The position numbers and the translations under genes are program-made. A stretch of 64,000 nt of DNA from Streptomyces humi (GTDB lineage Bacteria > Actinomycetota > Actinomycetes > Streptomycetales > Streptomycetaceae): assembly GCF_001005085.2 (NCBI RefSeq), contig NZ_LBMU02000091.1, positions 1 through 64,000 on the forward strand, in the 5' to 3' direction. Below, piece after piece: positions 3,001-22,717 of this stretch (positions are counted from its first letter, which is position 1; every line of letters starts with the position of its first letter). The notes beneath the pieces are model-generated. The model saw nothing but the letters and a program-made list of their open reading frames with translations, was not told the DNA's origin and searched no databases.

Positions 3001-6000
3001 CCGCTCACCAATGTGCGGCTGCTGGTGCTGGACGAGCGGCTGCGGCCGGTGCCGGTGGGTGTCGCGGGTGAGCTGTACATCGCGGGTGAGTCGCTGGCCC
3101 GGGCGTACGGGGACCGGCCGGCGCTGACCGCCGAACGGTTCGTGGCCGACCCGTACGCGGGGGACGGCTCCCGTGCCTACCGGTCCGGCGACCGGGTGCG
3201 GTGGCGGGCCGACGGGCGGCTGGAGTTCCTGGGCCGCATGGACCAGCAGGTGAAGGTACGGGGCTTCCGCGTCGAGCCCGGTGAGATCGAATCGGTCCTC
3301 ACGGCGCATCCCGGTGTGCGGTCCGCCGTCGTGACGACCTGGGGCGAGGGCGCCGACCGCGCCCTGGTGGCCTATCTGGTCCCGGCCGAACCGGCCGACG
3401 GCGTCCCCGCCGCCACCGAACTGCGGGAGCATCTGCGGCACAGCGTTCCCGAGTTCATGGTCCCGGCCGTCTTCACCGAACTGGCCGCGCTGCCGCTGAC
3501 CCCGAACGGAAAGCTGGACCGGGCCGCCCTCCCGGCGCCCCGCGCGACCCGGTCGGACGCCGACGCCTTCGTGGCGCCGTCCGGTACGGCCGAGGAACTG
3601 CTGGCGGGGATCTGGGGCCGGGTCCTGGGCGTGGACCGGGTCGGCGCACAGGACGACTTCTTCGAGCTGGGCGGGCACTCGCTGCTCGCCACCCAGGTGG
3701 TCTCCCGGATCCGGGACGTGCTGGGCGCCGAGGTGCCGCTCGCCGCGCTCTTCGACCGGCCCACCGTCCGCGGGCTGGCCGCGCTGGTGACGGCCTCGGA
3801 GCGGACCACGGTGCGGCCGGTGACCCCGGTCGGCCGGGACCGGCTGCTGCCGCTGTCGTTCGCGCAGCAACGGCTCTGGTTCCTGGACCAGTTGGAGCCC
3901 GGGTCCACCGAGTACAACCTGCCGATGCGGGTGCGGACGGGCCGGGACCTCGACATCAGGGCGCTGCGGTCGGCGCTCGGGGCGCTCGTCGCACGGCACG
4001 AAGTCCTGCGGACGCGGCTGGTGACCGGCGCGGACGGGGTGGCGTACCAGGTGATCGACCCGCCTGCGGAGTTCCCGCTGCCGCTGGTCGACGTCTCCGG
4101 CGCGGGCGACCCGCTCGGGGCCGCCGGGCGGCTGGTCGCGACGGACGAGGCGACGCCGTTCGACCTGGCGGCCGGGCCGCTGATCCGCGCCACCCTCGTC
4201 CGGCTCGCCGCCGACGACCACGTGCTCGCGCTGTCGCTGCACCACGTGGTCTCCGACGAGTGGTCGACGCGGATCTTCCAGCGTGAACTCACCCACCTCT
4301 ACGACGCGTTCCGCGCGGGCCGGGCGTCCGAGCTGCCCGCGCCGGCCGTGCAGTACGCCGACTTCGCGGTGTGGCAGCGGCAGTGGCTGACCGGTGACGT
4401 CCTCGACGCGCAACTCGCCCACTGGCGCGACCGGTTGCGTGGGGCGCCGGTGCTGGAGCTGCCCACGGACCGGCCCCGTCCCGCGGTGTGGTCCCCGGCG
4501 GGTGCCCGGGCCCGCTTCACCGTCCCGCAGGAGACGGTGGCCGCGCTGCGGGGACTGTCCCGCGAGCACGGCACGACGATGTTCATGACGCTGCTGGCCG
4601 CTTTCGACGTCCTGCTGGGCCGCTACGCCGGTACGGACGACGTGGTGGTCGGCACGCCCGTCGCCAACCGCAACCGGGCCGAGACCGAGGATCTGATCGG
4701 GTTCTTCGTCAACACCCTCGTGCTGCGCACCGACCTGTCCGGCGACCCGGCCTTCACCGACCTGCTGGGCCGCGTCCGCGCACTGGCCCTCGACGCCTAT
4801 GCCCACCAGGACCTGCCGTTCGAGCAGCTGGTGGACGATCTGGTCGTCGAGCGCGACCGGTCCCGCAGCCCGCTCTTCCAAGTGCTGTTCAACTACTTCT
4901 CGCAGGGTGACGGCGGCGAGGTCGTCGACGACGACCAGGCGTTCCTGGACGCCGGCGGTGACGTCCTGACCACCCGCTTCGACCTGCGGCTGGTGCTCGT
5001 GGAGGACGGCGGCGCGCTGTCCGGGGAGTTCGAGTACAGCACCGCGCTGTTCGACGCGAGCACGGTCGAGCGGATGGCACGGCACCTCGTGACCCTGCTC
5101 GCGGGCGTGGCCGTGGACGCCGACCGGACCGTGGGCGAGCTGCCGCTGCTGGCCGACGACGAGGCCCGACGGCTGGTGCGCGACGCGGACGACACCTGCG
5201 CGCCGGTGCCGTCCGTGCGCGGTGCGCACGACCTGATCGTCGCGCGGGCGACGGCGGCACCCGACGCAGTCGCGCTCGTCGCGGGCGGGCGGACGCTGAC
5301 GTACGCGGGGCTGCTGGAGCGGGCCGGGCGGCTGGCGCACTACCTGCGGGACACCGGAGTGGGCGCCGAGTCGGTCGTCGCCGTGTGCCTGCCCCGGGGG
5401 CCGGAGATGGTGGTGACACTGCTGGCGGTGTGGCTGGCGGGCGGTGTGTACCTGCCACTGGACCCGGAGTACCCGGCCGAACGGCTGGGGTTCGTGCTGG
5501 CCGACAGCGGAGCGTCGGTGCTCGTGGGCACCGAGGACCTGGTGGACGACCTGCCGGTCGGACGGCTGCGCACGGTCGTCCTGGACGACCCGGCCGTGGC
5601 GACGGCCCTCGCCGGCCGGCCCGCACGGCCGCTCGACGTGACCGTGCACGGCGGCCAGTCCGCGTACGTCATCTACACGTCGGGATCGACCGGGCGTCCG
5701 AAGGGCGTCCAGGTCACCCACGCGGGAGCCGTGAGCCTGGCCGCGGCGCAGCGGTCGGTGCTCGGCCCGGACGCGGGTACACGCGTGCTGCAATTCGCGC
5801 CGTTCGGGTTCGACGCGTCCGTCTGGGAGGTCCTGATGGCCCTGGCGGGCGGCGGCACGCTGGTCATGGCCGGCGCCGTGGAGCGGGCCGAACCGGACCG
5901 GCTGGCCACGCTCGTCGCGCGCGGCGGGGTGGAGGTGGCGACCGTGCCGCCGTCGCTGCTCGACGTGCTGCGGCCGCAGGAGTGGAGCACCGTGGGCACC

Positions 6001-7005
6001 CTGTTCACGGCTGGCGAACGGCTGGAGGGGCACCTCGCGCGGCGCTGGGCCGCCGGGCGCCGGCTGTTCAACGCCTACGGCCCGACCGAGACGACGGTCT
6101 GTGCCACGGTCGGCGCGTGCGACACGGCCGGCACGCGGGCGCCGTCGATCGGCGAAGCGGTTCCCCGCACCCGGGTGTACGTCCTGGACGCCACGCTGCG
6201 GCCGGTGCCTCCAGGAGTGGCCGGTGAGCTGTTCATCGCGGGGGCACAGGTGGCGCGCGGGTACCTCGGGCGGCCGGCGCTGACGGGCGAGCGCTTCCTC
6301 GCCGACCCGTTCACGGGCGACGGGCAGCGCATGTACCGGTCGGGGGACCGGGTGCGCCGGCTGGCGGACGGGCGGCTGGAGTTCCTGGGCCGGGCCGACG
6401 ACCAGGTGAAGGTGCGCGGGTACCGGATCGAGCCGGGGGAGATCGAGGCGGTCCTCGGCGCCCACCCGGCGGTCCGCACGGCCGTGGTCACCGCCCACGG
6501 CGACGACACCGACCGGCGCCTGGTCGCCTACCTGGTCCCCGCCGACCAGCGTGCGGGCCTGCCCCCCACCGCCGAGCTGCGGGCCCACGCGGCCGGCCGG
6601 CTCCCCGCGTTCATGGTCCCCGTGGTCCTCGTCGAGCTCACCGAGCTGCCGCTCACCACCAACGGCAAGGTCGACCGGGCCGCCCTGCCCGAGCCGGCCG
6701 GTGCGGCCCGTACGGACTCGGCGCAGGCGTACGTGGCGCCCCGTACCGGGACCGAGGACGTGCTCGCCGGGATCTGGGCGGAGCTCCTGGGGGCCGAACG
6801 GGTCGGTGTGCAGGACAACTTCTTCGACCTGGGCGGACACTCCCTGCTGGCCACCCAGCTGGTCTCGCGCATCCGGGAGGTGTTCGACGTCGGTCTGACC
6901 CTCGCCGAGGTCTTCGAACAGCCCACGATCGCGGCGATCGCCGCGATCGTGGGCCCGGACGGCGAGGCCGAGGACGGGGCAGAGTACGAGGAGTTCGACC
7001 TGTAG
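1..7005 (+). CDS. Nonribosomal peptide synthetase, 3' part (A-tail, T, C-A-T, C-A-T)
   Basis: Multimodular peptide synthetase; the reading frame is already open at base 1, so the 5' part lies outside the window. Visible domains in order: end of an adenylation domain (NGKID at about 190), carrier protein (GGHSLL near 350), condensation domain (HHVVFDEWS near 925), adenylation domain (YTSGSTGRPKG at 2476, FDASVW at 2611, NLYGPTEN near 2893), carrier (near 3665), condensation (HHVVSDEWS near 4240), adenylation (YTSGSTGRPKG near 5670, NAYGPTETT near 6070), carrier (GGHSLL near 6833), then the stop. There are no epimerase or thioesterase domains. Aligning the pockets with PheA by eye gives DAWQFGLID for the first complete A domain (from memory, Gln-like) and DAWTFAAVC for the second (Phe-like). 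Because no thioesterase follows, this protein is either not the last enzyme of the line or is released by something outside the window. The first condensation domain carries a run of TES/AES/TEG repeats. Confidence 0.96.
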   Translation: MHATVVTARGADGDRRLVAYVVPADAAAGVPSVSELRELVREVLPEYMVPSLFVELAALPLTPNGKIDRAALPEPQAPHAGSSYTAPATATEELLAGIWAQVLDVDRIGTQDSFFELGGHSLLATQIVSRVREVFAVEIPLAALFDQPTVCGLAAVIDGAGRGSVLPPVTPADRERPLPLSFAQQRLWFLDQLEPGSTEYNMSTRLHLPGELDLRALGAALDAIVARHEVLRTRLVADADGVPHQIIDPPTSLPLPVIDLSGATHPAREADAVTARQGLAPFDLATGPLVRAGLLRIADSDHVLALTFHHVVFDEWSDRAFQGELVALYEAFRAGLPDPLPPLAIQYADFAVWQRQWLSGEIVDAQLGYWREKLTGVPVLELPTDRPRPPVRSTDGSVRRFAVPAETADALRALSREHGTTMFMTLLAAFDVLLSRYGGAEDIAVGTPVANRNRAETEDLLGFFVNTLVLRTDLSGDPTFTELLARVRETALGAYAHQDLPFEQVVDDLVVERDRSRTPLFQVLFSYDSEERGSGSEGRVGEPSAQALPVNLPVKFDLMVTLGTESTESAESAESAESAESAESAESAESTEGTEGTEGTDAGALTGEIQFSTALFDASTIERMAGHLTALLEAVAADPGRPVGVLPLLTEPERDHLLHTWTDTAAALPEVNGIHELIAERAAARPDAVAVVSGEHTLTYGALLARANRLAHLLRGAGVGTESVVGLCLERGPDMVAAVLAVWQAGAAYLPLDPSYPADRLEYMLADSGTSVLVGHREVAAGLVGAGGPETVVWLDDPATRAALTALPDTSPRVPVLPLELAYVIYTSGSTGRPKGVQITHRGVLNRVSWMQDRHRLADSERVLQKTPLTFDASVWELLWPLSTGAELVLVAPGRHGDLDHVVALLESRRITVVQFVPSLFKLFVAHPWPSALPSLRAVFCGGEALPVDDVARFYARNATAVVANLYGPTENTIDAASTVCPRPHGTTDWSPGGLVPIGEPLTNVRLLVLDERLRPVPVGVAGELYIAGESLARAYGDRPALTAERFVADPYAGDGSRAYRSGDRVRWRADGRLEFLGRMDQQVKVRGFRVEPGEIESVLTAHPGVRSAVVTTWGEGADRALVAYLVPAEPADGVPAATELREHLRHSVPEFMVPAVFTELAALPLTPNGKLDRAALPAPRATRSDADAFVAPSGTAEELLAGIWGRVLGVDRVGAQDDFFELGGHSLLATQVVSRIRDVLGAEVPLAALFDRPTVRGLAALVTASERTTVRPVTPVGRDRLLPLSFAQQRLWFLDQLEPGSTEYNLPMRVRTGRDLDIRALRSALGALVARHEVLRTRLVTGADGVAYQVIDPPAEFPLPLVDVSGAGDPLGAAGRLVATDEATPFDLAAGPLIRATLVRLAADDHVLALSLHHVVSDEWSTRIFQRELTHLYDAFRAGRASELPAPAVQYADFAVWQRQWLTGDVLDAQLAHWRDRLRGAPVLELPTDRPRPAVWSPAGARARFTVPQETVAALRGLSREHGTTMFMTLLAAFDVLLGRYAGTDDVVVGTPVANRNRAETEDLIGFFVNTLVLRTDLSGDPAFTDLLGRVRALALDAYAHQDLPFEQLVDDLVVERDRSRSPLFQVLFNYFSQGDGGEVVDDDQAFLDAGGDVLTTRFDLRLVLVEDGGALSGEFEYSTALFDASTVERMARHLVTLLAGVAVDADRTVGELPLLADDEARRLVRDADDTCAPVPSVRGAHDLIVARATAAPDAVALVAGGRTLTYAGLLERAGRLAHYLRDTGVGAESVVAVCLPRGPEMVVTLLAVWLAGGVYLPLDPEYPAERLGFVLADSGASVLVGTEDLVDDLPVGRLRTVVLDDPAVATALAGRPARPLDVTVHGGQSAYVIYTSGSTGRPKGVQVTHAGAVSLAAAQRSVLGPDAGTRVLQFAPFGFDASVWEVLMALAGGGTLVMAGAVERAEPDRLATLVARGGVEVATVPPSLLDVLRPQEWSTVGTLFTAGERLEGHLARRWAAGRRLFNAYGPTETTVCATVGACDTAGTRAPSIGEAVPRTRVYVLDATLRPVPPGVAGELFIAGAQVARGYLGRPALTGERFLADPFTGDGQRMYRSGDRVRRLADGRLEFLGRADDQVKVRGYRIEPGEIEAVLGAHPAVRTAVVTAHGDDTDRRLVAYLVPADQRAGLPPTAELRAHAAGRLPAFMVPVVLVELTELPLTTNGKVDRAALPEPAGAARTDSAQAYVAPRTGTEDVLAGIWAELLGAERVGVQDNFFDLGGHSLLATQLVSRIREVFDVGLTLAEVFEQPTIAAIAAIVGPDGEAEDGAEYEEFDL
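1690..1797 (+). repeat. Twelve 9-bp tandem units inside the NRPS gene
   Basis: Twelve contiguous 9-bp units of the type (a/g)cggag(a/g)gc encode the tripeptides TES, TES, seven AES and three TEG. They sit in the C-terminal half of the first condensation domain, between its FDLMVTL and GEIQFST segments. At the same place the second condensation domain of the same protein has only an ordinary short loop, so the insertion is local and probably arose by slippage. Confidence 0.95.
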
Positions 7006-7032: not shown

Positions 7033-7072
7033 ACGCCGCCCATCCCTCATGTGGGGGAGGGGCGGCGTTTTT
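7033..7072 (+). terminator. Intrinsic terminator after the NRPS gene
   Basis: Perfect 9-bp stem acgccgccc (7033-7041) and gggcggcgt (7060-7068), followed by a run of five T (7068-7072). It starts 27 bases after the NRPS stop codon and separates it from the exporter genes, which therefore probably have their own promoter in about 7075-7150. Confidence 0.85.
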
Positions 7073-7150
7073 CCTCCCTCACAGGGGCGCCGTGAAAGCT
7101 GGCTCTGTGCCGTGACGACCGCGGACCCCGTTCTCCCTAGGGTTTTCACC

Positions 7151-8104
7151 ATGGAGAAGACGATCGATGAGTCGGATGCGACGATCGAGGTCAGGGACGT
7201 GCGCAAGCGCTTCGGGAGCACCCAGGCGCTGGACGGGATGACGTTCACCGTCAGGCCCGGTCAGGTCACCGGCTTCGTCGGTCCGAACGGTGCCGGGAAG
7301 TCCACCACGATGCGGGTGATCCTCGGCCTCGACAAACCGGACGCGGGGAGCGCCCTGGTCGGCGGCCGCCCCTACCGGGACCTGCGCACACCGCTGAAGC
7401 ACGTCGGGGCGCTGCTGGACGCCGCCGCCGTGCAGCCCAGCCGTTCCGCCCGCCACCACCTGCTGTGGCTGGCGCACTCACAGGGACTTGACGGCGTCCG
7501 GGTCGACGCGGTGCTCCGCCAGGCCGGCCTTCAGGAAGTGGCCCAGCGAAAGGCGGGCGGGTTCTCGCTCGGCATGCGACAGCGGCTCGGCATCGCGGCG
7601 GCCCTCCTCGGCGACCCGCCGGTCGTCATGCTGGACGAGCCGTTCAACGGCCTCGACCCCGAGGGCTTCATGTGGATGCGCGGCTTCCTCGCCTCGCTCG
7701 CGGCCCAGGGCCGGGCGGTGCTCGTCTCCAGCCACCTGATGAGCGAACTCCAGGACACCGCGGACCACGTGGTCGTCGTCGGACGGGGCAGGGTCCTCGC
7801 CGACATGAGCGTGCGTCAGCTGCTGGAGTCCATGTCCGAGGGACGCGTCACCCTGCGCACCTCCGCCCGCAACGACGCCATGACGGTACTGGCCCGCGCC
7901 GGCGCCACCGTCAGCTCCAGCGGAGCCGACACCATCAGCGTCACCGGCATGCCGGCCGAGAACGTCGTCTCCCTGCTCGGCGCCCACGCGGTGCCGTTCT
8001 CCGAGGTCTCCTCGCACCGCGCGTCGCTGGAGGAGGCCTACATGGAACTCACCCGGGACGCCGTGCAGTACCGCGGGACGATGCCCGAGGAGGCCGGTCG
8101 ATGA
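7151..8104 (+). CDS. ABC transporter ATP-binding protein (ABC-2 type exporter)
   Basis: ATPase subunit of a drug- or peptide-exporter of the DrrA type. Walker A GPNGAGKST, signature SLGMRQRL and Walker B VVMLDEPF are all present, and the length (317 aa) is normal. The ATG at 7151 was chosen because the conserved domain starts about 13 residues later; there is no strong Shine-Dalgarno sequence, so an upstream GTG near 7109 remains possible. The stop overlaps the start of the next permease by 4 nt (ATGA). Its position directly after the NRPS suggests export of, or self-protection against, the peptide, which is inference. Confidence 0.9.
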   Translation: MEKTIDESDATIEVRDVRKRFGSTQALDGMTFTVRPGQVTGFVGPNGAGKSTTMRVILGLDKPDAGSALVGGRPYRDLRTPLKHVGALLDAAAVQPSRSARHHLLWLAHSQGLDGVRVDAVLRQAGLQEVAQRKAGGFSLGMRQRLGIAAALLGDPPVVMLDEPFNGLDPEGFMWMRGFLASLAAQGRAVLVSSHLMSELQDTADHVVVVGRGRVLADMSVRQLLESMSEGRVTLRTSARNDAMTVLARAGATVSSSGADTISVTGMPAENVVSLLGAHAVPFSEVSSHRASLEEAYMELTRDAVQYRGTMPEEAGR

Positions 8105-9654
8105 CCTCCACCCTCACCCCGCCCCGCGCGAGGCCACGGCCGGAACGCGGCGGCTTCGGACGGCTGCTGCACGCGGAATGGACCAAGTTCCGCACCGTGC
8201 GCGGCTGGACCGCGAGCAGCATCGGCGCCGTCCTCGTCATCTGCCTGGTCGGACTGCTCGCCACCGCCGCGGGCAACGCGTCGGGTACGGACGGCAGCGC
8301 CGCGCTGCCCGTCGGCCCCGGCGGCGAAGCGGTCAACGACAGCTTCTACTTCGTGCACCAGCCGCTCCAGGGCGACGGCACCATCACCGTCTCCGTGTCG
8401 TCGCTCACCGGGGTGGTCGCCACCGACCCCGAGCACAGCCGTACCGGACTCGCGCCCTGGGCGAAGGCCGGGATCATCGTCAAGGACGGCCTGGACCAGG
8501 GCTCGGCGTACGCGGCGATGATGCTGACCGGCGCACACGGCGTGCGCATGCAGTACGACTACACGCACGACATCGCCGGCCCGTCCGGACGGGCCGGCCG
8601 CGAGCAGCCGGCCTGGCTGCGTCTGAAGCGCTCCGGAGACACCGTCACCGGCTACCAGTCGGCCGACGGCACCAAGTGGACCGAGACCGGCAGCGCACGG
8701 CTCTCAGGGCTGTCGGCGACCGCGCAGGTCGGGCTGTTCGTGACCTCGCCGTCCGTGGAGGAGAAGACCGGCACCGGGACGGGCTTCGCGCCCGCCGTGG
8801 CCACCGGCACCTTCGACCAGGTGGACCTCGGCGGCCAGTGGACCGCGGGCAACTGGCAGCAGGTTCAGGTCGGTGACGGGGCGGGCACCTCCGGCAGCTA
8901 CAGCCAGAACACCAAGGGCCAGGCCGTCCCGTCCGGCAGCGGCTTCGCCGTCACCGGCGCCGGAGACATCGCGCCGGTCGTGGGCGGGCCCGCCACCAGC
9001 GGCGTGCGGACCATCGAGAACTTCCTCGTCGGAGCGTTCGCCGGGCTGATCATCATGGTCGTCGTCGGCGCGGGCTACATCACCGTCGAGTACCGGCGGG
9101 GCCTGATCGGCGTCACCCTGGCGGCGAGCCCGCGCCGCGGCCGCGTCCTGGTGGCCAAGGCACTCGTGGTGGGCACCGTCGGGTTCCTCGTGGGGCTGGT
9201 CTCCGCGGCCGTCATGGTGCCCCTGGGCGGACAGCGCTCGAAGGCGAACGGCTTTCCCGTGCTCACCGTGCCCACCGGCACCGAACTGCGGGTCGTCGTC
9301 GGCACGGGCCTGCTGCTCGCCGTCGCGGGCGTCCTCGCCCTCGCCGTCGGCACCGTCCTGCGGCGCAGCGCCGTCGCCATCACCGTGGTCGTCGTCGGCA
9401 TGGTGCTGCCCTACCTCCTCGCCACCGCCTCGGTGCTGCCGGACGGCGCCTCCGAGTGGCTGCTGCGGGTCACCCCCGCCGCCGGCTTCGCCATTTTGCA
9501 GAGCGTCGCGCGGTACGAGCAGGTCGTCACCGTCTACGCGCCCGGTTCGGGCTACTTCCCGCTGGCGCCCTGGTCCGGCTTCGCCGTGCTGTGCGTCTAC
9601 GCGGCCGTGGCGTTCGCCGCCGCCGTGGTCCTGCTGCGCCGGAGGGACGTATGA
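8101..9654 (+). CDS. ABC-2 type permease with large extracytoplasmic domain
   Basis: Membrane subunit of the exporter, 517 aa. One transmembrane helix at about residues 38-60 is followed by a soluble segment of roughly 230 residues, then by five or so hydrophobic helices at about 310-517. The soluble part has the look of a laminin-G/concanavalin-like fold (Trp- and Gly-rich, with WLRLKRSGDTVTGYQSADG). Such an insert is far larger than in ordinary DrrB-type permeases and would face outside. Start and stop overlap both neighbours by 4 nt, so the three exporter genes are translationally coupled. Confidence 0.85.
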   Translation: MTSTLTPPRARPRPERGGFGRLLHAEWTKFRTVRGWTASSIGAVLVICLVGLLATAAGNASGTDGSAALPVGPGGEAVNDSFYFVHQPLQGDGTITVSVSSLTGVVATDPEHSRTGLAPWAKAGIIVKDGLDQGSAYAAMMLTGAHGVRMQYDYTHDIAGPSGRAGREQPAWLRLKRSGDTVTGYQSADGTKWTETGSARLSGLSATAQVGLFVTSPSVEEKTGTGTGFAPAVATGTFDQVDLGGQWTAGNWQQVQVGDGAGTSGSYSQNTKGQAVPSGSGFAVTGAGDIAPVVGGPATSGVRTIENFLVGAFAGLIIMVVVGAGYITVEYRRGLIGVTLAASPRRGRVLVAKALVVGTVGFLVGLVSAAVMVPLGGQRSKANGFPVLTVPTGTELRVVVGTGLLLAVAGVLALAVGTVLRRSAVAITVVVVGMVLPYLLATASVLPDGASEWLLRVTPAAGFAILQSVARYEQVVTVYAPGSGYFPLAPWSGFAVLCVYAAVAFAAAVVLLRRRDV

Positions 9655-10427
9655 GGAGGGCCGGACACGCCGAGTGGACCAAGCTGCGTACCGAGGCCGG
9701 CAACGGCTGGCTGGTACTGGGCGTGGTCGCCCTGACCGTGGCGGTCGGCGCCGCGGTGGCCATGACCTCCCGCTGCGACGCCGCGGGCTGCGGGCAGGAC
9801 CCGGCCCGGCTGAGCCTCACCGGGGTGATGGTCGGGCAGGTCGTCGTCGCCATCGTGGCGGTGCTCATGGTGGGCAACGAGTACAGCAGCGGCATGATGA
9901 AGACGACCCTCGCGGCGGTGCCGCGCCGCCTCACCGTGCTGGGCGCCAAGGCGTCCGTCCTCACCGCGGTCATGCTGGTGGCCGGTACGGTCGCGGTGCT
10001 GGCGTCCCTGCTGACCGGCCGGATCGTCCAGCCGGACCGCGGATTCACCAAGGCGCACGGCTACGGAGCCCTGTCGCTGGCCGACGGGTCCACGCTCCGG
10101 GCCGCCGTGGGCTCCGTGCTCTACCTCGTCCTGATCGGTCTCCTCAGCCTCGGGATCGCGCTGGTCGTACGGAACTCGGCGACCGCCATCGGCATCGTGC
10201 TCGCGTTGCTGTTCGTCTTCCCGATCCTCGCCCAGGTGGTCGCCGACCCGGACTGGCAGCGCCACCTCCAGCAGATCTCCCCGATGACCGCCGGCCTCGC
10301 CGTCCAGAGCACCATCGACCTGGACAAGCTGCCCATCGGACCCTGGAAGGGCCTGGGCGTGCTGGCGCTGTGGGCCACCGGCGCGCTGCTGGCGGGCGGC
10401 TGGCTGCTGCGCTCGCGGGACGCGTGA
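9651..10427 (+). CDS. ABC-2 type permease
   Basis: Second membrane subunit of the exporter, 258 aa, with about six hydrophobic helices. The N-terminal pattern HAEWTKLRTEAGNGW resembles the start of the preceding permease (HAEWTKFRTVRGWT), so the two genes look like diverged paralogues. The ATG at 9651 overlaps the preceding stop codon. It is the last gene of the exporter operon; a long inverted repeat follows. Confidence 0.85.
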   Translation: MRRAGHAEWTKLRTEAGNGWLVLGVVALTVAVGAAVAMTSRCDAAGCGQDPARLSLTGVMVGQVVVAIVAVLMVGNEYSSGMMKTTLAAVPRRLTVLGAKASVLTAVMLVAGTVAVLASLLTGRIVQPDRGFTKAHGYGALSLADGSTLRAAVGSVLYLVLIGLLSLGIALVVRNSATAIGIVLALLFVFPILAQVVADPDWQRHLQQISPMTAGLAVQSTIDLDKLPIGPWKGLGVLALWATGALLAGGWLLRSRDA

Positions 10428-10498: not shown

Positions 10499-10657
10499 AA
10501 GCCGTCCCGCACGGGCACTTATGGATGAGCAGGCACCATTGCCGTACGCTGAGAGCGCCTAATCACGCGACAACACGTTTCGCGGCATTCCGACGAACTC
10601 CTTTTCCCGGTGCTGCGCGTGCCCATGTTCGCCGTCGGCTCGCTTTCGGAGGTTCCG

Positions 10658-10933
10658 GTGAGGAAGTACTGCAAGTCCTACCTGCTGGGTGAATTGCGTC
10701 GGTTCCCGGGCTGGGCGGCCGGCGCTCAGCCGGAAGAGCGCGAGATGACCGACGACACCACGGTGTTCCTCTGTGACGAACTGACCGTGCTGATCAGCCC
10801 GGTCGGCGTCGACAAGGACAAGAGACTCTTCACCGAGGACACCCCCGAGTGGCGCGAATTCTGCGAGACCACGCTGAAGTTCCGCATTCCCGAGGACCTC
10901 GCCTTCGCCTACGCCGACTCCGAGCAGAACTGA
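10658..10933 (+). CDS. Small protein of unknown function in the NRP cluster
   Basis: 91 aa, not recognised. The GTG start at 10658 is preceded by a good ribosome binding site (cggagg). The sequence opens VRKYCKSYLLGELRRFPGW and later contains WREFCETTLKFRIPEDLAFAY: a compact alpha/beta-looking, acidic protein with two Cys and no signal peptide or membrane helix. It is the first gene of what looks like one operon through the Hmo-HpgT fusion at 18618. A chaperone-like or carrier-interacting helper is possible, but nothing in the sequence proves it. Confidence 0.75.
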   Translation: MRKYCKSYLLGELRRFPGWAAGAQPEEREMTDDTTVFLCDELTVLISPVGVDKDKRLFTEDTPEWREFCETTLKFRIPEDLAFAYADSEQN

Positions 10934-10961: not shown

Positions 10962-11300
10962 ATGGATGAGCTGACGCAACGCCTGAGCGACGCACAGCCG
11001 GTGGAGGTGGGCGGACCCAAGCCCACCCTGGAGGAGCTGCACACCCGTCTCACCGACATCGGCACCGTGTTCGTGAAGTTCACCGAGACCCGCGGCGGCA
11101 CCGACCTCGGGATACGCCTGGACCGGGACGCGACCGAGCTCGGCGCGGCCGACTTCGGGCAGGGCACCGGCACCGTCCACGTCGAGGGCACCCTGATCCT
11201 CAACGACGACCCGGTGCGCTGCATCGCCGACATCGACCTGGCGACACTCAAGGGAACCGGTCGCCTCGTCGTCGTGGAGATGTCCGAGGCCGCCGGCTGA
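10962..11300 (+). CDS. Small acidic protein of unknown function in the NRP cluster
   Basis: 112 aa, not recognised. ATG at 10962 with gagagg upstream. It has an amphipathic N-terminal segment followed by beta-rich sequence (GTVHVEGTLILNDDPVRCIA), no signal peptide, no cofactor motif and a strongly acidic composition. It lies 28 bp after the preceding small gene and 12 bp before the Dap-synthase-like gene, so it is very probably co-expressed with both. A role with the PLP enzyme or NRPS loading would be guesswork. Confidence 0.75.
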   Translation: MDELTQRLSDAQPVEVGGPKPTLEELHTRLTDIGTVFVKFTETRGGTDLGIRLDRDATELGAADFGQGTGTVHVEGTLILNDDPVRCIADIDLATLKGTGRLVVVEMSEAAG

Positions 11301-11312
11301 CAGGTTTCCATC

Positions 11313-12320
11313 ATGAGGGCGGTGAGCTCTCCGCATCCGGCGCTTCCCCCGGTCGGGACCACTCCGATCGTGGATGTCGCCGTGACGGTGCACGGACTCG
11401 AGCGCCGGCTCCGGCTGAAACTCGAATCGCACAATCCCCACGGCTCGTTGAAGGACCGCATCGCCGCCTTTCTCATCGAGCACGTGGCCGACCGCATCGA
11501 CAAGGACATCGGCATCATCGAATCGACGTCGGGGAATCTCGGCGTCGCGATGGCGGCCGAATGCCAGGGGCGCGGAATTCCCTTCAACGCCGTCGTCGAT
11601 CCCCGCACCAGCTCGTTCTTCGTGGACCGCATGCGTGAACTGGGCGCGCGGGTCACGGTCGTCGACGAACCGGATTCCTCCGGTGGTTATCTTCTCAACC
11701 GCATCCGGCACGTCCGGGAACAACTGCGCACCCGTCCCGGACTAGTGTGGACCAACCAGTACCGCAGCGAAGCCAATCCCCGCGCCCACTTCGTGACCAC
11801 GGCGCCCGAACTCAGACGGCAGGTGCCCGGCCCCGCGACCCTGCTGGTGCCCGTCTCGACGGGCGGCACCCTGGCGGGCCTCGCCCGGTACGTCGACGAG
11901 ACCGACGTCCCCTGGAAGCTGGTCGGTGTCGACGTGCACGGCTCCGCCGCACTCGGCGGGGCACCGCCCGGCAGGCGGCTGCTGTCCGGGATCGGGGCCA
12001 GCTGTCCGTCGTACTTCCTGCCCGCCGACCGGGCGCAGGCCCTGTACGTCGACGTCAGCGAGGCGATCGCGGCCTGCCTGTGGCTGTCCGAGCACGCCGG
12101 CATCGGCGTCGGCGGCAGCTCCGGAGCCACCGTCGCCGCCGCGCTGCGGCTGTTCGGCGAGGAACCGGAGACACACGAACTGGTCTGTCTGTGCCCCGAC
12201 GGCGCGGACCGGTACCTGAGCACCCTCTACCACCCCGGCTGGCGGGCGGCCCACGGCATCACGGCGGCCCGGATCGGCGGCGCCGGCGCCGGGGGAGACC
12301 CGGCCGAACCGTTCGGGTGA
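11313..12320 (+). CDS. Cysteine-synthase-like PLP enzyme, probable 2,3-diaminopropionate precursor synthase
   Basis: 335 aa fold-type II PLP enzyme. The Schiff-base lysine is K47 in HNPHGSLKDR; the phosphate/substrate loop STSGN and the PLP-phosphate loop VSTGGTLAG are present. Family knowledge: SbnA and VioB-type homologues in siderophore and peptide clusters replace the phosphate of O-phosphoserine by glutamate nitrogen, on the way to 2,3-diaminopropionate (Dap). The cluster setting and the carbamoyltransferase directly downstream argue for Dap rather than primary cysteine synthesis. No SbnB-like partner dehydrogenase is seen in the window, so it would have to lie upstream. A primary cysteine synthase is the main alternative. 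Confidence 0.8.
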   Translation: MRAVSSPHPALPPVGTTPIVDVAVTVHGLERRLRLKLESHNPHGSLKDRIAAFLIEHVADRIDKDIGIIESTSGNLGVAMAAECQGRGIPFNAVVDPRTSSFFVDRMRELGARVTVVDEPDSSGGYLLNRIRHVREQLRTRPGLVWTNQYRSEANPRAHFVTTAPELRRQVPGPATLLVPVSTGGTLAGLARYVDETDVPWKLVGVDVHGSAALGGAPPGRRLLSGIGASCPSYFLPADRAQALYVDVSEAIAACLWLSEHAGIGVGGSSGATVAAALRLFGEEPETHELVCLCPDGADRYLSTLYHPGWRAAHGITAARIGGAGAGGDPAEPFG

Positions 12321-12342
12321 AGCCCCTCGAGAGCGGAGAATC

Positions 12343-13284
12343 ATGGTCGCAAGGGAACGCGGGCTGCTCACGCTGTCCGACCTGACCAGGCAGGACCTGG
12401 AACGCCTCGCGGCCCGGTCCCGGGACCTGTTCCACGACGAGACGGCGCACGGACGTCCGCTCCGCGACAAGGTCGTCGGGGTGCTGTTCACCAAGACGTC
12501 GACGCGCACCAGAACCGCCTTCAGCGCGGGCACCGTCAAACTCGGCGGATTCCCCCTGCTGTACGGCCCCCAGGACCTCCAGACGGCCACCGGGGAAACC
12601 CTCCAGGACACCGGACGTGTCTTCGGATCCATGCTCGACGGACTCGTCGCGCGCACGGCCGGACCGCTGCGCGAACTGCGGGAGATATCCCGCGCCGGCG
12701 ACCTTCCCGTCATCAACGCGATGGCCACCGAGGAACACCCGACTCAGGGCGTCTGCGACCTGGGCATCATGCTCGTGGAATTCGGGACCCTGGAAAATCT
12801 GACGGTGCTGTACGTGGGGGAGGGGAACAACACGGCGTCCGCACTCGCGCACGGGCTCTCCCGACTGCCGGGCTGCGACGTCACGTTCGCCACGCCACCC
12901 GGCTACGGACTCGACCCGCAGATCCTCGACGACGCCGCGAAGCAGGCGGCCGCGGCCGGCGGAACCGTCCGGCAGGTCCACGACCTCGACGAACTCCCCG
13001 ACCAGGTGCACGTCGTCTACACCACTCGCTGGCAGACCACCGGCACGGTCAAACCGGATCCCGACTGGCGCCGGGTCTTCCAGCCGTTCCATGTCGACGA
13101 GCGGCTGATGGCCCGCTGGCCCGACGCGAAGTTCATGCACGACCTGCCGGCCCACCGCGGCGAGGAGGTCTCGGCAGCCGTCCTCGAAGGGCCCCGCTCG
13201 ATCGCCTGGAAACAGGCCCGTATGAAACTCACCAGCGCCATGGCGGTCCTCGAAGAAGTCATCGCCGGGACGGATCGCGCCTGA
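12343..13284 (+). CDS. Ornithine-carbamoyltransferase-like enzyme with altered substrate site
   Basis: 313 aa, the length of normal OTCases. The carbamoyl-phosphate motif STRTR is at residues 53-57 and HPTQ at 132-135. The ornithine-contacting motif HCLPAHRGEEV of OTCases reads HDLPAHRGEEV here (H266, D267), and the usual SMG loop is replaced by YTTRWQTTG, reminiscent of the aspartate-carbamoyltransferase loop. Substrate is therefore unlikely to be ornithine. Next to a Dap-synthase-like gene, carbamoylation of Dap to 3-ureidoalanine is the best guess; VioL/CmnL-type enzymes carbamoylate Dap-derived residues in tuberactinomycins. The ATG has ggag 10 bp upstream. Confidence 0.85.
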   Translation: MVARERGLLTLSDLTRQDLERLAARSRDLFHDETAHGRPLRDKVVGVLFTKTSTRTRTAFSAGTVKLGGFPLLYGPQDLQTATGETLQDTGRVFGSMLDGLVARTAGPLRELREISRAGDLPVINAMATEEHPTQGVCDLGIMLVEFGTLENLTVLYVGEGNNTASALAHGLSRLPGCDVTFATPPGYGLDPQILDDAAKQAAAAGGTVRQVHDLDELPDQVHVVYTTRWQTTGTVKPDPDWRRVFQPFHVDERLMARWPDAKFMHDLPAHRGEEVSAAVLEGPRSIAWKQARMKLTSAMAVLEEVIAGTDRA

Positions 13285-13473: not shown

Positions 13474-15057
13474 ATGGCTGAAGAGCAGCTGTATCTGCGG
13501 TCCAAGGTCATCGTCGAGCCGCTCGTGGACCGGTTCTACGTCTGGCCGCACACCCTCGCTCCCGTACAGGCCGCGATGAACCTGGCCTTCCTCCAGGTCC
13601 CGCTGCTGGAGTCCTACCTGCAATCCCCCAAGGTCCACGTCGCGGCCAGCCACAACCCCGAACTGCGCGGCGGCTACTTCATCAACATCCCCGAAGAGCG
13701 CGCCGACGAGGTACGCGACCTGCTGGCCACCATCAAGCGCGAGCGGGCGGAGATGCTGCGGTTCGCCGAGGCCATCGCCGAGGGCCAGGAACTGCTGCGG
13801 GCGAACGCCACCGGCTTCGACCTCACCCCGCTCTACCCGAAGCTGCCCCCGGAGCTCGGCGGCCTGGTCGAGCTGGCCTACGACACCGACAACCAGGCGC
13901 AGATCCGCTTCCTGGAGCCGCTGGCCTACCACAGCAGCGTCTACCAGGAGGCACGCCAGTCGGTACAGCTGTCCTTCGAGACCGGCATCGAACGTCCGTT
14001 CATCCTCAGCACCCCGCGACTGCCCTCCCCGGACGTCCTGGAGCTGCCGATCCCGTTCCGGCACGCCGGCCTCGAAGAGCTGTTCAGGACCCGCGTGCGC
14101 CCCACCACCCTGGCCCACCTGCGCGAGGCCCTGGAGCTGGACGAGGATCAGACGAAGCAGCTGTCCGGGATGCTCAGCGAGCAGCCCGCCCTCTCCCCGG
14201 ACCGCCACATCGACAGCGGCGGCCGGATCCGCTACTTCGGACACGCCTGTCTGGTCCTTCAGACCCCCGAAGCGGCTGTCGTCACCGACCCGTTCATCAG
14301 CGCCGACAACACGGCCGGCGACCGCTACACCCTCGACGACCTGCCGGACTTCATCGACCTGGTGCTCATCACCCACGGCCACCAGGACCACATCGTCCTG
14401 GAGACGCTGCTCCAGCTGCGCGGCCGGGTCGGCGCGGTCGTCCTGCCGCGTGCCTCGCGCGGCAACCTGGCCGACCCCTCGATGGCGCTGATGCTGAAGT
14501 ACCAGGGCTTCCCCGTCATCGAGGTCGACGACTTCGACGAGGTCGCCTTCCCCGGCGGCAAGGTCACCGCCACCCCGTTCCTCGGCGAGCACTGCGACCT
14601 CGACATCCGCGGGAAGTCCACCTACTGGGCCGAGTTCGCCGGCAAGAAGGTGTTCGTCGGCGCCGACTCCTCCGGTATCGACCCGCTGCTGTACCGGCAC
14701 GTGAAGGCGCACCTCGGCACCGCCGACATCGCCTTCCTCGGCATGGAGTGCGACGGCGCCCCGCTCACCTGGCTCTACCAGGCGCTGCTGACCAAGCCCG
14801 TGACCAAGAAAATGAGCAGTTCCCGCAAGCTGTCCGGCTCCAACGCCGCGCAGGCCGGCGACATCATGGTCGAACTCGGCGCCAAGGAGGCGTACGTCTA
14901 CGCCATGGGCGAGGAGCCCTGGCTGGGCCACGTCATGGCGACGACGTACACCGAGGACACGTACCAGATCAAGCAGATCGACGAGTTCATGAGCTGGTGC
15001 AAGGACCGCGGCATCAAGTCCGGACACCTCTACGGCCAGCAGGAATGGCGCTGGTAG
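13474..15057 (+). CDS. CmlA-type diiron beta-hydroxylase (metallo-beta-lactamase fold)
   Basis: 527 aa. The N-terminal half (about 1-240) lacks a recognisable motif and the C-terminal half has the metallo-beta-lactamase fold. The metal motif THGHQDH gives H301, H303, D305 and H306; E372 (FLGEH) and D398 (GADSS) follow. These match the order and near spacing of the CmlA ligands (H305, H307, D309, H310, E377, D403). CmlA-type enzymes hydroxylate the beta carbon of amino acids bound to an NRPS carrier. Here the target could be the Phe-like residue or the ureidoalanine; ramoplanin- and teicoplanin-type clusters use relatives on Asn and Tyr. The ATG at 13474 was chosen for its ctggagg site; longer versions have no such site. 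Confidence 0.9.
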   Translation: MAEEQLYLRSKVIVEPLVDRFYVWPHTLAPVQAAMNLAFLQVPLLESYLQSPKVHVAASHNPELRGGYFINIPEERADEVRDLLATIKRERAEMLRFAEAIAEGQELLRANATGFDLTPLYPKLPPELGGLVELAYDTDNQAQIRFLEPLAYHSSVYQEARQSVQLSFETGIERPFILSTPRLPSPDVLELPIPFRHAGLEELFRTRVRPTTLAHLREALELDEDQTKQLSGMLSEQPALSPDRHIDSGGRIRYFGHACLVLQTPEAAVVTDPFISADNTAGDRYTLDDLPDFIDLVLITHGHQDHIVLETLLQLRGRVGAVVLPRASRGNLADPSMALMLKYQGFPVIEVDDFDEVAFPGGKVTATPFLGEHCDLDIRGKSTYWAEFAGKKVFVGADSSGIDPLLYRHVKAHLGTADIAFLGMECDGAPLTWLYQALLTKPVTKKMSSSRKLSGSNAAQAGDIMVELGAKEAYVYAMGEEPWLGHVMATTYTEDTYQIKQIDEFMSWCKDRGIKSGHLYGQQEWRW

Positions 15058-15100: not shown

Positions 15101-16126
15101 ATGACGGCGCACGACATAGCGCACGTCGAGCTGTACACGAAAGACGCACCGTCCACCGTCGACTACTTCGTCGAGGGCATGGACTTCACGCGCGTCGCGG
15201 ATTGCGTGCAGGCCGACCGGAGCTCCATCCTGCTGCGCCAGGGTGAGACCCACCTCGTCATCACGTCGGGCCGGGGAACGTGGAAGTTCCTCGACCAGCA
15301 CGGGGACGGCATCGCCGACCTCGCCCTGGCCTGCGACGACGTGGACGCCACCTACGCCGAAGCCGTCGCCGCCGGGGCCGAACCGCTCGACCCGGTGTAC
15401 GGCAGTCCGGTCGTGTCGGGCTTCGGGGACGTCACCCACACCCTGGTGGCCCACGCCCCGGACGCCGCGGAAGCCCGGTGGCCCGCCGGACGCCGATGGG
15501 TCCCCGCGCCGCAGGCTCCGCCCGGCCCCGCGGGGCGGATCCGCCTGCTCGACCACGTCGCGGTGTGCGTCGAGGGCGGCAGCCTCAGCAGGTACGCCGA
15601 CTTCTACGGCGCCGCTTTCGGCATGGACCGCTACTCCTCGGAGTACGTCGCCGTCGGCGGACAGGCGATGGACTCCGTCGTCGTCCGCAGCGGCACCGGA
15701 CGCGTCACCTTCACCCTCGTCGCGCCCGACCCCGGCAAGGACCCCGGACAGCTCGACGCCTTCCTGGACCGCAACGGCGGCCCCGGCGTACAGCACCTGG
15801 CCTTCCTGGTCGACGACATCATCCCGGCGGTCGGCGAGTTCCGCGACCGGGGCGTGGAGTTCCTCAGCACCCCCGGCACGTACTACGACCTGCTCGCCGA
15901 GCGGTTCGCTGACATGCGGGAGGAGATCTCCGAACTGCGCGCCGGGCAGATCCTCGCCGACCGCGACGAATGGGGATACCTGCTCCAGCTGTTCAGCCGC
16001 TCCCCCTACGAACGCAACACCCTCTTCTACGAGTTGATACAACGTCAGGGATCGCGCGGTTTCGGCAGCGCCAACATCCGTGCCCTGTACGAGGCCGTGG
16101 AACGCGATCGGCTGGCCGCCGGGTGA
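15101..16126 (+). CDS. hmaS: 4-hydroxymandelate synthase
   Basis: 341 aa iron(II)/alpha-keto-acid dioxygenase of the HPPD family. It converts 4-hydroxyphenylpyruvate to 4-hydroxymandelate, the first committed step to 4-hydroxyphenylglycine (Hpg). Iron ligands H152, H232 and E311 have exactly the spacing of the A. orientalis enzyme (H161, H241, E320). Primary-metabolism HPPD has the same scaffold, but position between the hydroxylase and the Hmo-HpgT fusion makes the Hpg role very likely. A strong site (caggagg) precedes the ATG, and the stop overlaps the next GTG start (GTGA). Confidence 0.93.
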   Translation: MTAHDIAHVELYTKDAPSTVDYFVEGMDFTRVADCVQADRSSILLRQGETHLVITSGRGTWKFLDQHGDGIADLALACDDVDATYAEAVAAGAEPLDPVYGSPVVSGFGDVTHTLVAHAPDAAEARWPAGRRWVPAPQAPPGPAGRIRLLDHVAVCVEGGSLSRYADFYGAAFGMDRYSSEYVAVGGQAMDSVVVRSGTGRVTFTLVAPDPGKDPGQLDAFLDRNGGPGVQHLAFLVDDIIPAVGEFRDRGVEFLSTPGTYYDLLAERFADMREEISELRAGQILADRDEWGYLLQLFSRSPYERNTLFYELIQRQGSRGFGSANIRALYEAVERDRLAAG

Positions 16127-18618
16127 ACGCCGCGAGCGCCGCCGAAGCCGCGGACACCCCGAACGCCGCGGGCCCCGCGAACGCCGCGGGCCCCGCGAAC
16201 GCCGTGGGCACCCCGGACGCCGTGGGCTCCGCCGGGGGTCCCTACACGCCGGCCGAGTACGCCGAGTTGGCCCGCTCCGCGCTGAGCCCCGGGACGTGGG
16301 ACTTCATCGAGGGCGGCGCGGGACAGGAACGGACCCTCGCGGCCAACGTCGAGGCGTTCGACCGGGTACGGCTCCGGCCCCGCGTCCTGACCGGCGCGGG
16401 CCGGCCGGATCTCGGCGTGCGGATCCTGGGCCGCGACTGGGCGGCGCCGTTCGCCGTCACACCCGTCGCCTATCACACGCTGGTCCACGAGGCCGGAGAG
16501 GTGGCCACCGCCCGGGCGACAGGCCGGGCCGGCGTCCCCCTGGTCGTCAGCACCTTCGCCGGGCGCACCTTCGAGGACATCGCCGAGACCGCGTCCGCAC
16601 CCCTGTGGCTCCAGGTGTACTGCTTCCGGGACCGGGCGGTGACCCGGGCTCTGGTGGAGCGCGCCGAACGGGCGGGCTTCGAGGCGCTGGTGCTCACGGT
16701 GGACGCGCCCCGCCTCGGCCGGCGGCTGCGCGACCTGCGCAACGGCTTCCGGCTCCCGGCCGGCGTCCTGCCCGCCAACCTTCCCGGCGAGCGCGTCTCG
16801 TCCCCCGCCGACCACGCGCTGACCGCGTTCGACGACCGCCTCGACTGGTCGTCCGTCGACTGGCTGCGCTCCGTCAGCTCCCTCCCCGTGCTGGTCAAGG
16901 GCATCCTGACCGCCGACGACGCGCGCCGGGCCCTGGCCGCGGGCGTCGACGGGATCGTCGTGTCCAACCACGGCGGCCGCCAACTGGACGGAGCGCCCGC
17001 CACCCTGGACGTCCTGCCCGAGGTCGCCGCCGCCGTGGACCACGCCTGCCCGGTGTTCGTCGACGGCGGGGTCCGCCGGGGTCACGACGTCCTGGCCGCG
17101 CTGGCGCTGGGCGCCGACGCGGCCCTCCTCGGACGGCCCGTCCTGCACGGGCTGGCGGTCCACGGGGAGACAGGTGTGGGACGGGTGCTGGACACCCTCG
17201 CCGAGGAACTCACCGAGGCGATGACGCTCACCGGGACGGCCTCCGTCGCCCAGGCGGGCCCCCACCTGGTGGGCGCCGCCGCCCCGGCCGCGGCGCGGCC
17301 CCGCGCGGCGCGGAGCGGTGCGGAGAGCTCCGGTCTGCGCAAGGCGGAACTGCACGGCAGTCTGCGGGATCCGGTCCTGGACACCATGAACTTCCTGAAC
17401 GAGATCACCCACCGCTACCCCGACGCGATCTCCTTCGCCCCGGGCCGCCCCTACGACGGCTTCTTCCGCACCGAGGACATCTTCACGTACCTGCGCCGCT
17501 ACCTGGACCACCTCGAGGAGGGCGGCGCCTCACCGGAGCAGGTGCGCTCCGCGCTCTTCCAGTACGGCCCGACGAGCGGGCAGATCCGCGAGCTGATCGC
17601 CGACTCGCTGCGCAAGGACGAGAACATCGACGTGGGGCCGGAGTCGGTCGTGGTCACCGTCGGCTGCCAGGAGGCGATGTTCCTGGCGGTCCGCGCCCTG
17701 ATCTCGGGCCCCGACGACGCGCTGCTGGTCTCCAGCCCCTGCTACGTCGGCATCACCGGCGCCGCCCGGCTGCTGGACGTCGAGGTGACCGCGGTGGAGG
17801 AGGACGACGACGGGTTCGACCCCGCGCGCCTTGAGGCGGCCCTGCGCGCCGAACGGGCCCGCGGACGGCGGCCCCGCGCCTTCTACGTCATCCCCGACCA
17901 TTCCAACCCCTCCGGCCGGACCATGCCGCTGAGCGCCCGGCTGGAACTCCTCGACCTCGCGCGCCGCGAGGACCTGCTGATCCTGGAGGACACCCCGTAC
18001 CGGATGGTCAGTCCGGGCCGGCAGCTCCCGACCCTCAAGTCCCTGGACCGCGACCGCAGGGTCGTGCACCTGGGCTCGTACTCCAAGACGCTGTTCCCCG
18101 GGGCCCGGGTCGGGTTCGCCGTCGCGGACCAGAGCGTCGTCGACGACGCGGGACGCACCGGACTGCTCGCCGACGAACTCACCAAGATCAAGAGCATGGT
18201 GACCGTGAACACCTCCCCGGTGAGTCAGGCCGTCGCGGCGGGCATGCTGCTGTCCGCCGACGGACGCACCTCCGAGCTCAACGCCCGGGCCGCCGCCTAC
18301 TACGGGGACGCGATGCGGGTCACGCTCCGGGAACTGGAGCGCGCCTTCCCGGAGGACGAGCGCGCCCGGCTGGGCGTGCGCTGGAACGAACCCGCCGGCG
18401 GTTTCTTCCTCGCGGCCCAGGTGCCGTTCCGTGCCGACAACGCGGCCCTCGCCCGCTCGGCGGAGGAATTCGGCGTCATCTGGACGCCCATGTCGTATTT
18501 CTATCCGCAAGGCGGCGGGGATCACGAGATCCGGCTGTCCGTCAGCTATCTCACCCATCAGGAAATAGCCGACGGAATCGAGCGTCTGACCCACTTCGTG
18601 AAAGCGCAGACGGCTTAA
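16123..18618 (+). CDS. Fused 4-hydroxymandelate oxidase and HpgT aminotransferase
   Basis: 831 aa bifunctional enzyme for the last two steps to Hpg. Residues about 40-390 form an FMN-dependent alpha-hydroxyacid oxidase (VSNHGGRQLD with H283; DGGVRRGHDVLAAL), which oxidises 4-hydroxymandelate to 4-hydroxyphenylglyoxylate. Residues about 410-831 form a fold-type I aminotransferase with PLP lysine K655 (GSYSKTLFPG), which makes Hpg and, from 3,5-dihydroxyphenylglyoxylate, also Dpg. In most glycopeptide clusters these are two genes; fused forms occur in some lipodepsipeptide clusters as far as I recall. The GTG at 16123 overlaps the hmaS stop. An Ala/Asn/Pro-rich repeat forms the N-terminus and an Ala-rich linker joins the domains. 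Confidence 0.93.
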   Translation: MNAASAAEAADTPNAAGPANAAGPANAVGTPDAVGSAGGPYTPAEYAELARSALSPGTWDFIEGGAGQERTLAANVEAFDRVRLRPRVLTGAGRPDLGVRILGRDWAAPFAVTPVAYHTLVHEAGEVATARATGRAGVPLVVSTFAGRTFEDIAETASAPLWLQVYCFRDRAVTRALVERAERAGFEALVLTVDAPRLGRRLRDLRNGFRLPAGVLPANLPGERVSSPADHALTAFDDRLDWSSVDWLRSVSSLPVLVKGILTADDARRALAAGVDGIVVSNHGGRQLDGAPATLDVLPEVAAAVDHACPVFVDGGVRRGHDVLAALALGADAALLGRPVLHGLAVHGETGVGRVLDTLAEELTEAMTLTGTASVAQAGPHLVGAAAPAAARPRAARSGAESSGLRKAELHGSLRDPVLDTMNFLNEITHRYPDAISFAPGRPYDGFFRTEDIFTYLRRYLDHLEEGGASPEQVRSALFQYGPTSGQIRELIADSLRKDENIDVGPESVVVTVGCQEAMFLAVRALISGPDDALLVSSPCYVGITGAARLLDVEVTAVEEDDDGFDPARLEAALRAERARGRRPRAFYVIPDHSNPSGRTMPLSARLELLDLARREDLLILEDTPYRMVSPGRQLPTLKSLDRDRRVVHLGSYSKTLFPGARVGFAVADQSVVDDAGRTGLLADELTKIKSMVTVNTSPVSQAVAAGMLLSADGRTSELNARAAAYYGDAMRVTLRELERAFPEDERARLGVRWNEPAGGFFLAAQVPFRADNAALARSAEEFGVIWTPMSYFYPQGGGDHEIRLSVSYLTHQEIADGIERLTHFVKAQTA
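16162..16233 (+). repeat. Four 18-bp tandem units at the N-terminus of the Hmo-HpgT fusion
   Basis: Units starting at 16162, 16180, 16198 and 16216 (aacgccgcgggccccgcg and variants) encode NAAGPA, NAAGPA, NAVGTP and DAVGSA. They precede the catalytic fold and probably form a disordered extension. Confidence 0.85.
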
Positions 18619-19297: not shown

Positions 19298-19413
19298 GGG
19301 CCCTCGCCACTGTTGTCGGACCGGCTCTCCGGCCGACTCCTGGAAGGACGAAAAGTGTTCGTACCGAAGTTTCTCGTACGCAGCAAGACCCGAATGTGGG
19401 GGTGGACCTTCCG

Positions 19414-22717
<3,304 letters not shown>

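Follow-up and report, generated by a model that had tools for sequence, protein, structure and literature searches.

In the 10.0 Mb draft genome of Streptomyces humi, the window analysed here (the opening 64 kb of contig C206) contains a gene resembling L-2,3-diaminopropionate (Dap) synthases followed directly by a gene of the ornithine carbamoyltransferase (OTC) family, both downstream of an NRPS with a glutamine-like A domain. This raises the question of what the gene pair makes and whether the A domain uses it. From motifs and family placement, the order of the genes, the pocket code and co-occurrence, we infer both the reactions and the loaded residue: with a probability of roughly 0.78, the two genes supply the rare amino acid L-3-ureidoalanine (albizziine) to the NRPS next to them, where it would be loaded by the A domain with the pocket DAWQFGLID. 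A preliminary description of the locus had proposed a 3-ureidoalanine pathway and a matching A domain as mutually supporting observations, an interpretation that the motifs, the presence of an SbnB partner and the co-occurrence data support. This kind of pathway is already known from viomycin, capreomycin and zwittermicin; the peptide it serves appears to be new.

In the proposed pathway, an SbnA/CmnB-type enzyme (11313-12320) would couple O-phosphoserine with glutamate, and an SbnB-type dehydrogenase, whose gene lies at the opposite cluster end on contig C160, would then free L-2,3-diaminopropionate. The transcarbamylase (12343-13284) would carbamoylate the side-chain nitrogen of Dap from carbamoyl phosphate, after which the DAWQFGLID A domain in the penultimate module would load 3-ureidoalanine, probably as the L form. 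A Phe-like residue would be added to the chain after it.

The window opens with the C-terminal part of the last NRPS (1-7005), which is truncated where the contig begins and has the domain order A(end)-T-C-A-T-C-A-T (two C, two AMP-binding and three PP-binding Pfam domains); like the other window genes described here, it lies on the forward strand. A Pfam domain search found no thioesterase in this NRPS, and its orthologue in G401, a genome containing a complete relative of the cluster, is a 10933-aa NRPS with an identical domain ending. An ABC exporter follows (7049-10427; Pfam ABC_tran and ABC2_membrane), consisting of an ATPase (7049-8104) and two permeases (~8101-9654 and ~9651-10427) in a gene order that is kept in relatives. 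Two genes for small conserved proteins, s1 (10610-10933; 82-97 % identity in syntenic relatives) and s2 (10962-11300; conserved in syntenic relatives), stand directly before the SbnA gene in all syntenic clusters, and family searches gave no match for s1 and nothing above the cut-off for s2. The Dap synthase and transcarbamylase ORFs are arranged head to tail on the same strand with a gap of 22 bases.

Downstream of the pair lies a gene for a CmlA-type diiron beta-hydroxylase (13474-15057; CmlA_N 283 bits plus a beta-lactamase fold) with a predicted carrier-bound amino acid substrate. Hpg would be supplied by an HmaS (4-hydroxymandelate synthase-type) dioxygenase (15101-16126; 4HPPD 325 bits), assigned to Hpg from its neighbours, and an Hmo-HpgT-type fusion of FMN dehydrogenase and aminotransferase (16123-18618; FMN_dh and Aminotran_1_2), while DpgA (19396-20565; NF042429, 644 bits), a DpgB-like protein (~20580-21278) and DpgC (~21374-22621; NF042432, 711 bits) are assigned to Dpg, with ECH_1 as a further family match in this group. 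Relatives have the same gene order, with transcarbamylases 74-93 % identical to that of the window, and since the Dap synthase, the transcarbamylase and the A-domain features all recur in them, the combination is not a chance one.

The first enzyme of the pair is a 335-aa PLP protein whose best PDB match is CmnB, the capreomycin Dap synthase (8if7). It contains the PLP-lysine motif GSLKDR at residue 44, ESTSGNLG at 70 and PVSTGGT at 180, and in an alignment with CmnB the lysine, ESTSGNLG and VSTGGT all match. On the SbnA model TIGR03945 it scored 275 bits, under the cut-off of 350, and the characterised CmnB (fragment 51-353), used as a control, scored 286 bits, also under 350. The cut-off is uninformative here because CmnB itself falls below it, and excluding the protein as a Dap synthase for its low SbnA score was dropped. 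The 64-kb window has no SbnB gene, and this absence was considered as a pathway gap and set aside upon finding an SbnB-type gene on contig C160 (16010-17029), with TIGR03944 as its best NCBIfam match (206 bits against a cut-off of 327). G254, G186 and G401 each have an SbnB orthologue within this cluster, and because both cluster ends share one contig in these three genomes, we treat C160 and C206 as opposite ends of a single cluster, joined by synteny rather than by assembly. The Dap-synthase-like enzyme seen earlier can be specified as a predicted CmnB-type enzyme with its SbnB partner in the same cluster. Other OCD-family genes were considered on contigs C214, C131, C172 and C191, and a second SbnA/SbnB pair is located at the end of contig C172 (51014-54083; L064:16015-19083).

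The second enzyme, of 313 aa, had been singled out as an OTC-family protein with HDLP and a YTTRWQTTG loop. Both features were confirmed and constitute the published signature of L-2,3-diaminopropionate transcarbamylases (DPTCases), described in a family review as (T/S)RWQTTG plus HDLP together with a list of contact residues (PMC4581275). YTTRWQTTG spans residues 226-234 (TTRWQTTG, the 240s loop, 227-234), HDLP replaces HCLP at H266 D267 L268 P269, and the carbamoyl-phosphate contacts are S53, T54, R55, T56, Q80, R104, H132, Q135 and K295, so that every residue on the published contact list is present (PMC4581275). Among 80 named DPTCase loci, 35 have SbnA and/or SbnB no more than 10 kb away, as do 16 of 33 other sampled loci; both counts are lower bounds, with several contigs being short. 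Taken with the phylogeny presented below, the motifs and the SbnA/SbnB neighbours indicate that 12343-13284 very probably encodes a DPTCase that makes 3-ureidoalanine.

DPTCase-like genes were also seen beyond actinobacteria, in Bacteroidota (L144, L168), Bacillota (L152, L161) and Tengunoibacter (L178), and some of these adjoin NRPS A domains. A different arrangement, with the order SbnA, AurF-like diiron oxygenase, (SbnB) and DPTCase, occurs at L044, L045 (7906-8826) and likely L047; no A domain was found near these genes at L044 and L045, whose product is possibly an N-oxygenated ureidoalanine or Dap.

Alignment to the pocket of GrsA PheA gave DAWQFGLID for the first complete A domain of the NRPS (core 2431-3000) and the Phe-like DAWTFAAVC for the next and last (5677-6400). 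The first code agrees with the preliminary description, which said that it resembles Gln codes; the code itself stands, and "resembles" is too weak, as DAWQFGLIDK is listed for Gln in tyrocidine synthetase (PMC2866473). Because glutamine and ureidoalanine are isosteric and the tyrocidine code is identical, the code alone cannot separate the two substrates, and DAWQFGLID was rejected as proof of ureidoalanine. This identity is what favours the strongest competing explanation, in which the DPTCase makes ureidoalanine for use elsewhere and the DAWQFGLID domain loads glutamine. We nevertheless regard glutamine loading as improbable, given the genomic distribution and ancestry of such domains.

At a threshold of at least 80 % identity, and across two partly overlapping samples of 294 and 393 genomes, the window A-domain lineage was found in eight genomes. 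In each of the eight, a DPTCase with at least 74 % identity is encoded about 10 kb further downstream. Outside this lineage, the closest A domains in the sample were ~55 % identical or less and had the serine code DVWHxSL(I/V)D or one close to it, not a Gln code. A similar pocket, DA[WL]Q..T[IV]D, marks a second, unrelated lineage, which was searched with a DAWQFATID domain from another DPTCase locus and was present in 32/294 genomes. A DPTCase was found in 31 of these 32, compared to 45/294 genomes overall for a relative of at least 50 % identity (Fisher p 6.5e-30, a value that overstates independence as the counts share ancestry and clusters are inherited whole). The single exception has the divergent code DAWQSGTNE, and where domain and DPTCase share a contig they are usually 4-30 kb apart. 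Finally, among the readable A-domain codes of the complete G401 cluster, no other suits ureidoalanine. The matching of this A domain to the ureidoalanine pathway thus draws its support from co-occurrence with DPTCase in both lineages. Clusters combining DA[WL]Q..T[IV]D, DPTCase and Asn-like DLPKVAEVG domains are widespread (L059, L056, L150, L167 and others).

With the nine pocket columns left out, a tree (from a short search with SH-aLRT support only) nested the window A domain in the serine group (support 98), gave the DAWQFATID group a clade of its own (99), and put the DASQFAHID/DATQFALID domains, which were found by searching around DPTCases and so carry no independent count, in a third clade (100). 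These unrelated A domains beside DPTCase have A236, Q278, I/V330, D331 and a small residue at 301 in common. Because separate lineages share pocket residues beside the same enzyme, the window pocket was probably reached from serine-type A domains by convergence on ureidoalanine.

A less likely course of events is that Dap is loaded first and carbamoylated later, either while carrier-bound or once the peptide is complete. The capreomycin domain CmnA-A1 activates free Dap (PMC12400406), which shows that Dap and ureido residues can coexist in such pathways. The window transcarbamylase, however, keeps the residues of a small-substrate DPTCase, and the pocket is of the neutral Gln type rather than one that would be expected for a second amino group, making late carbamoylation quite unlikely.

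The phylogeny of the carbamoyltransferase, which the preliminary description had put forward as a check, placed 12343-13284 within a 60-row clade with the DPTCase signature, in which a few members have RWETTG or RWNTTG. This clade (RWQTTG/HDLPAHRG) is separate both from OTC and from a clade with RWQTMG/HDLPAVRG. Members of the latter (L071, L073, L074, L076) occur near A domains such as DSYYWGAVF and are candidate DBTCases. The padanamide DBTCase acts on 2,4-diaminobutyrate (Dab) and has the loop RWQSMG (PMC4581275), and a DBTCase role for the window enzyme would fit HDLP and a related loop, which are common to both types, as well as a published DPT/DBT distinction that is thin (PMC4581275). 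We consider this very unlikely, as the window loop is RWQTTG and not RWQSMG, the enzyme lies outside the RWQTMG/HDLPAVRG clade, and the cluster has the Dap genes SbnA and SbnB. Least credible is a spare OTC for citrulline or arginine: the best general models are indeed ornithine carbamoyltransferase (TIGR00658), but the score of 233 bits is under the cut-off of 281, the DxxxSMG and HCLP motifs of true OTCs (DVWxSMG in full) are missing, the enzyme is outside OTC in the tree, and an OTC-like gene with DVWVSMG on contig C40, which is cut, makes a separate arginine enzyme likely in this genome.

With 3-ureidoalanine as the favoured product of the pair, the complete relative in G401 (C2:228000-337000; L256-L261), on one contig, gives a view of the peptide it would enter. 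The G401 cluster begins with SbnB, VioC-type and VioD-type genes, a two-component system, an ABC transporter and an alpha/beta hydrolase, continues with four NRPSs, the ABC exporter, the two small proteins, SbnA and DPTCase, and ends with CmlA, HmaS, Hmo-HpgT and the Dpg genes, of which DpgA comes first. The four NRPSs contain 24 A domains, an unusually long assembly line of the arylglycine type. Codes were readable for 22 of the 24, and DAWQFGLID appears once, in module 23. DALSLGTVM and DALSLGGVI probably mark arylglycine modules and DAEDIGAIT probably a capreomycidine module, while codes elsewhere point to Thr, Asp, Tyr, Phe and Gly.

The capreomycidine assignment has a counterpart in S. 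humi, where genes for a VioC-type arginine/enduracididine hydroxylase and a VioD-type capreomycidine synthase adjoin SbnB (C160:17060-19460; L065:9062-11459); the corresponding clusters of G254, G186 and G401 contain their orthologues. The VioD copy scored 533 bits against a capreomycidine synthase cut-off of 391 and the VioC copy 424 bits against 419, with the related enduracididine hydroxylase GntD as the best match of the latter. In viomycin, the acyl-CoA-dehydrogenase-type desaturase is VioJ. No desaturase of this type was found in the contig stretches searched, and the ureidoalanine residue therefore probably stays saturated. By analogy to CmlA, the probable substrate of the CmlA-type hydroxylase is an aromatic residue held on a carrier. 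Ureidoalanine is an improbable substrate, since hydroxylation of the carbon bearing the ureido group would give an unstable product. Conservation across the clusters is higher for this hydroxylase (88-96 %) than for the DPTCase (73-93 %).

On balance we lean, by a little over even odds, towards a product that is an undescribed Hpg/Dpg-rich peptide of ~24 residues with capreomycidine and ureidoalanine, in which a serine A domain gave rise to ureidoalanine selection, separately from at least one other Streptomyces A-domain lineage with a similar pocket. A literature search for ureidoalanine combined with arylglycine peptides returned nothing relevant, and a 24-module arylglycine line with tuberactinomycin-type building blocks was not found described in the literature searched. 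If these readings are correct, a DAxQ(F..)(A/G)x(I/V)D code beside a DPTCase would denote ureidoalanine and not glutamine in actinobacterial NRPS clusters, which would change structure predictions for many clusters, given the frequency of DPTCase relatives among the sampled genomes. Glutamine and its isostere would also offer a natural pair for testing A-domain choice, and the cluster would point to a very large unexplored arylglycine peptide.

Several known systems share parts of this logic. The capreomycin and viomycin pathways (CmnB/VioB, CmnK/VioK, CmnL/VioL) have in common with it the CmnB-type Dap synthase, the SbnB-type partner and the DPTCase, and their VioC and VioD steps also have equivalents among its capreomycidine genes. 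The tuberactinomycins, however, are cyclic pentapeptides, whereas the window cluster would build a 24-module arylglycine-rich chain and showed no desaturase in the stretches searched. In zwittermicin A biosynthesis in Bacillus cereus, a DPTCase carbamoylates Dap to ureidoalanine (PMC4581275). The step would be the same, but the host phylum and the assembly line are different. The zwittermicin A cluster is not known to contain Hpg, Dpg or capreomycidine genes. The padanamide DBTCase shares the OTC branch and HDLP with the window enzyme and differs from it in loop and in using Dab. The tyrocidine Gln module has an identical nine-residue pocket, while serine A domains of actinobacteria surround the window domain in the tree; tyrocidine is not known to have a DPTCase partner. 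Peptides of the feglymycin/ramoplanin type share the Hpg and Dpg supply genes, and a CmlA-type hydroxylase is also present in ramoplanin. Compared to these, the window-type cluster has 24 modules, as seen in G401, and adds genes for capreomycidine and ureidoalanine.
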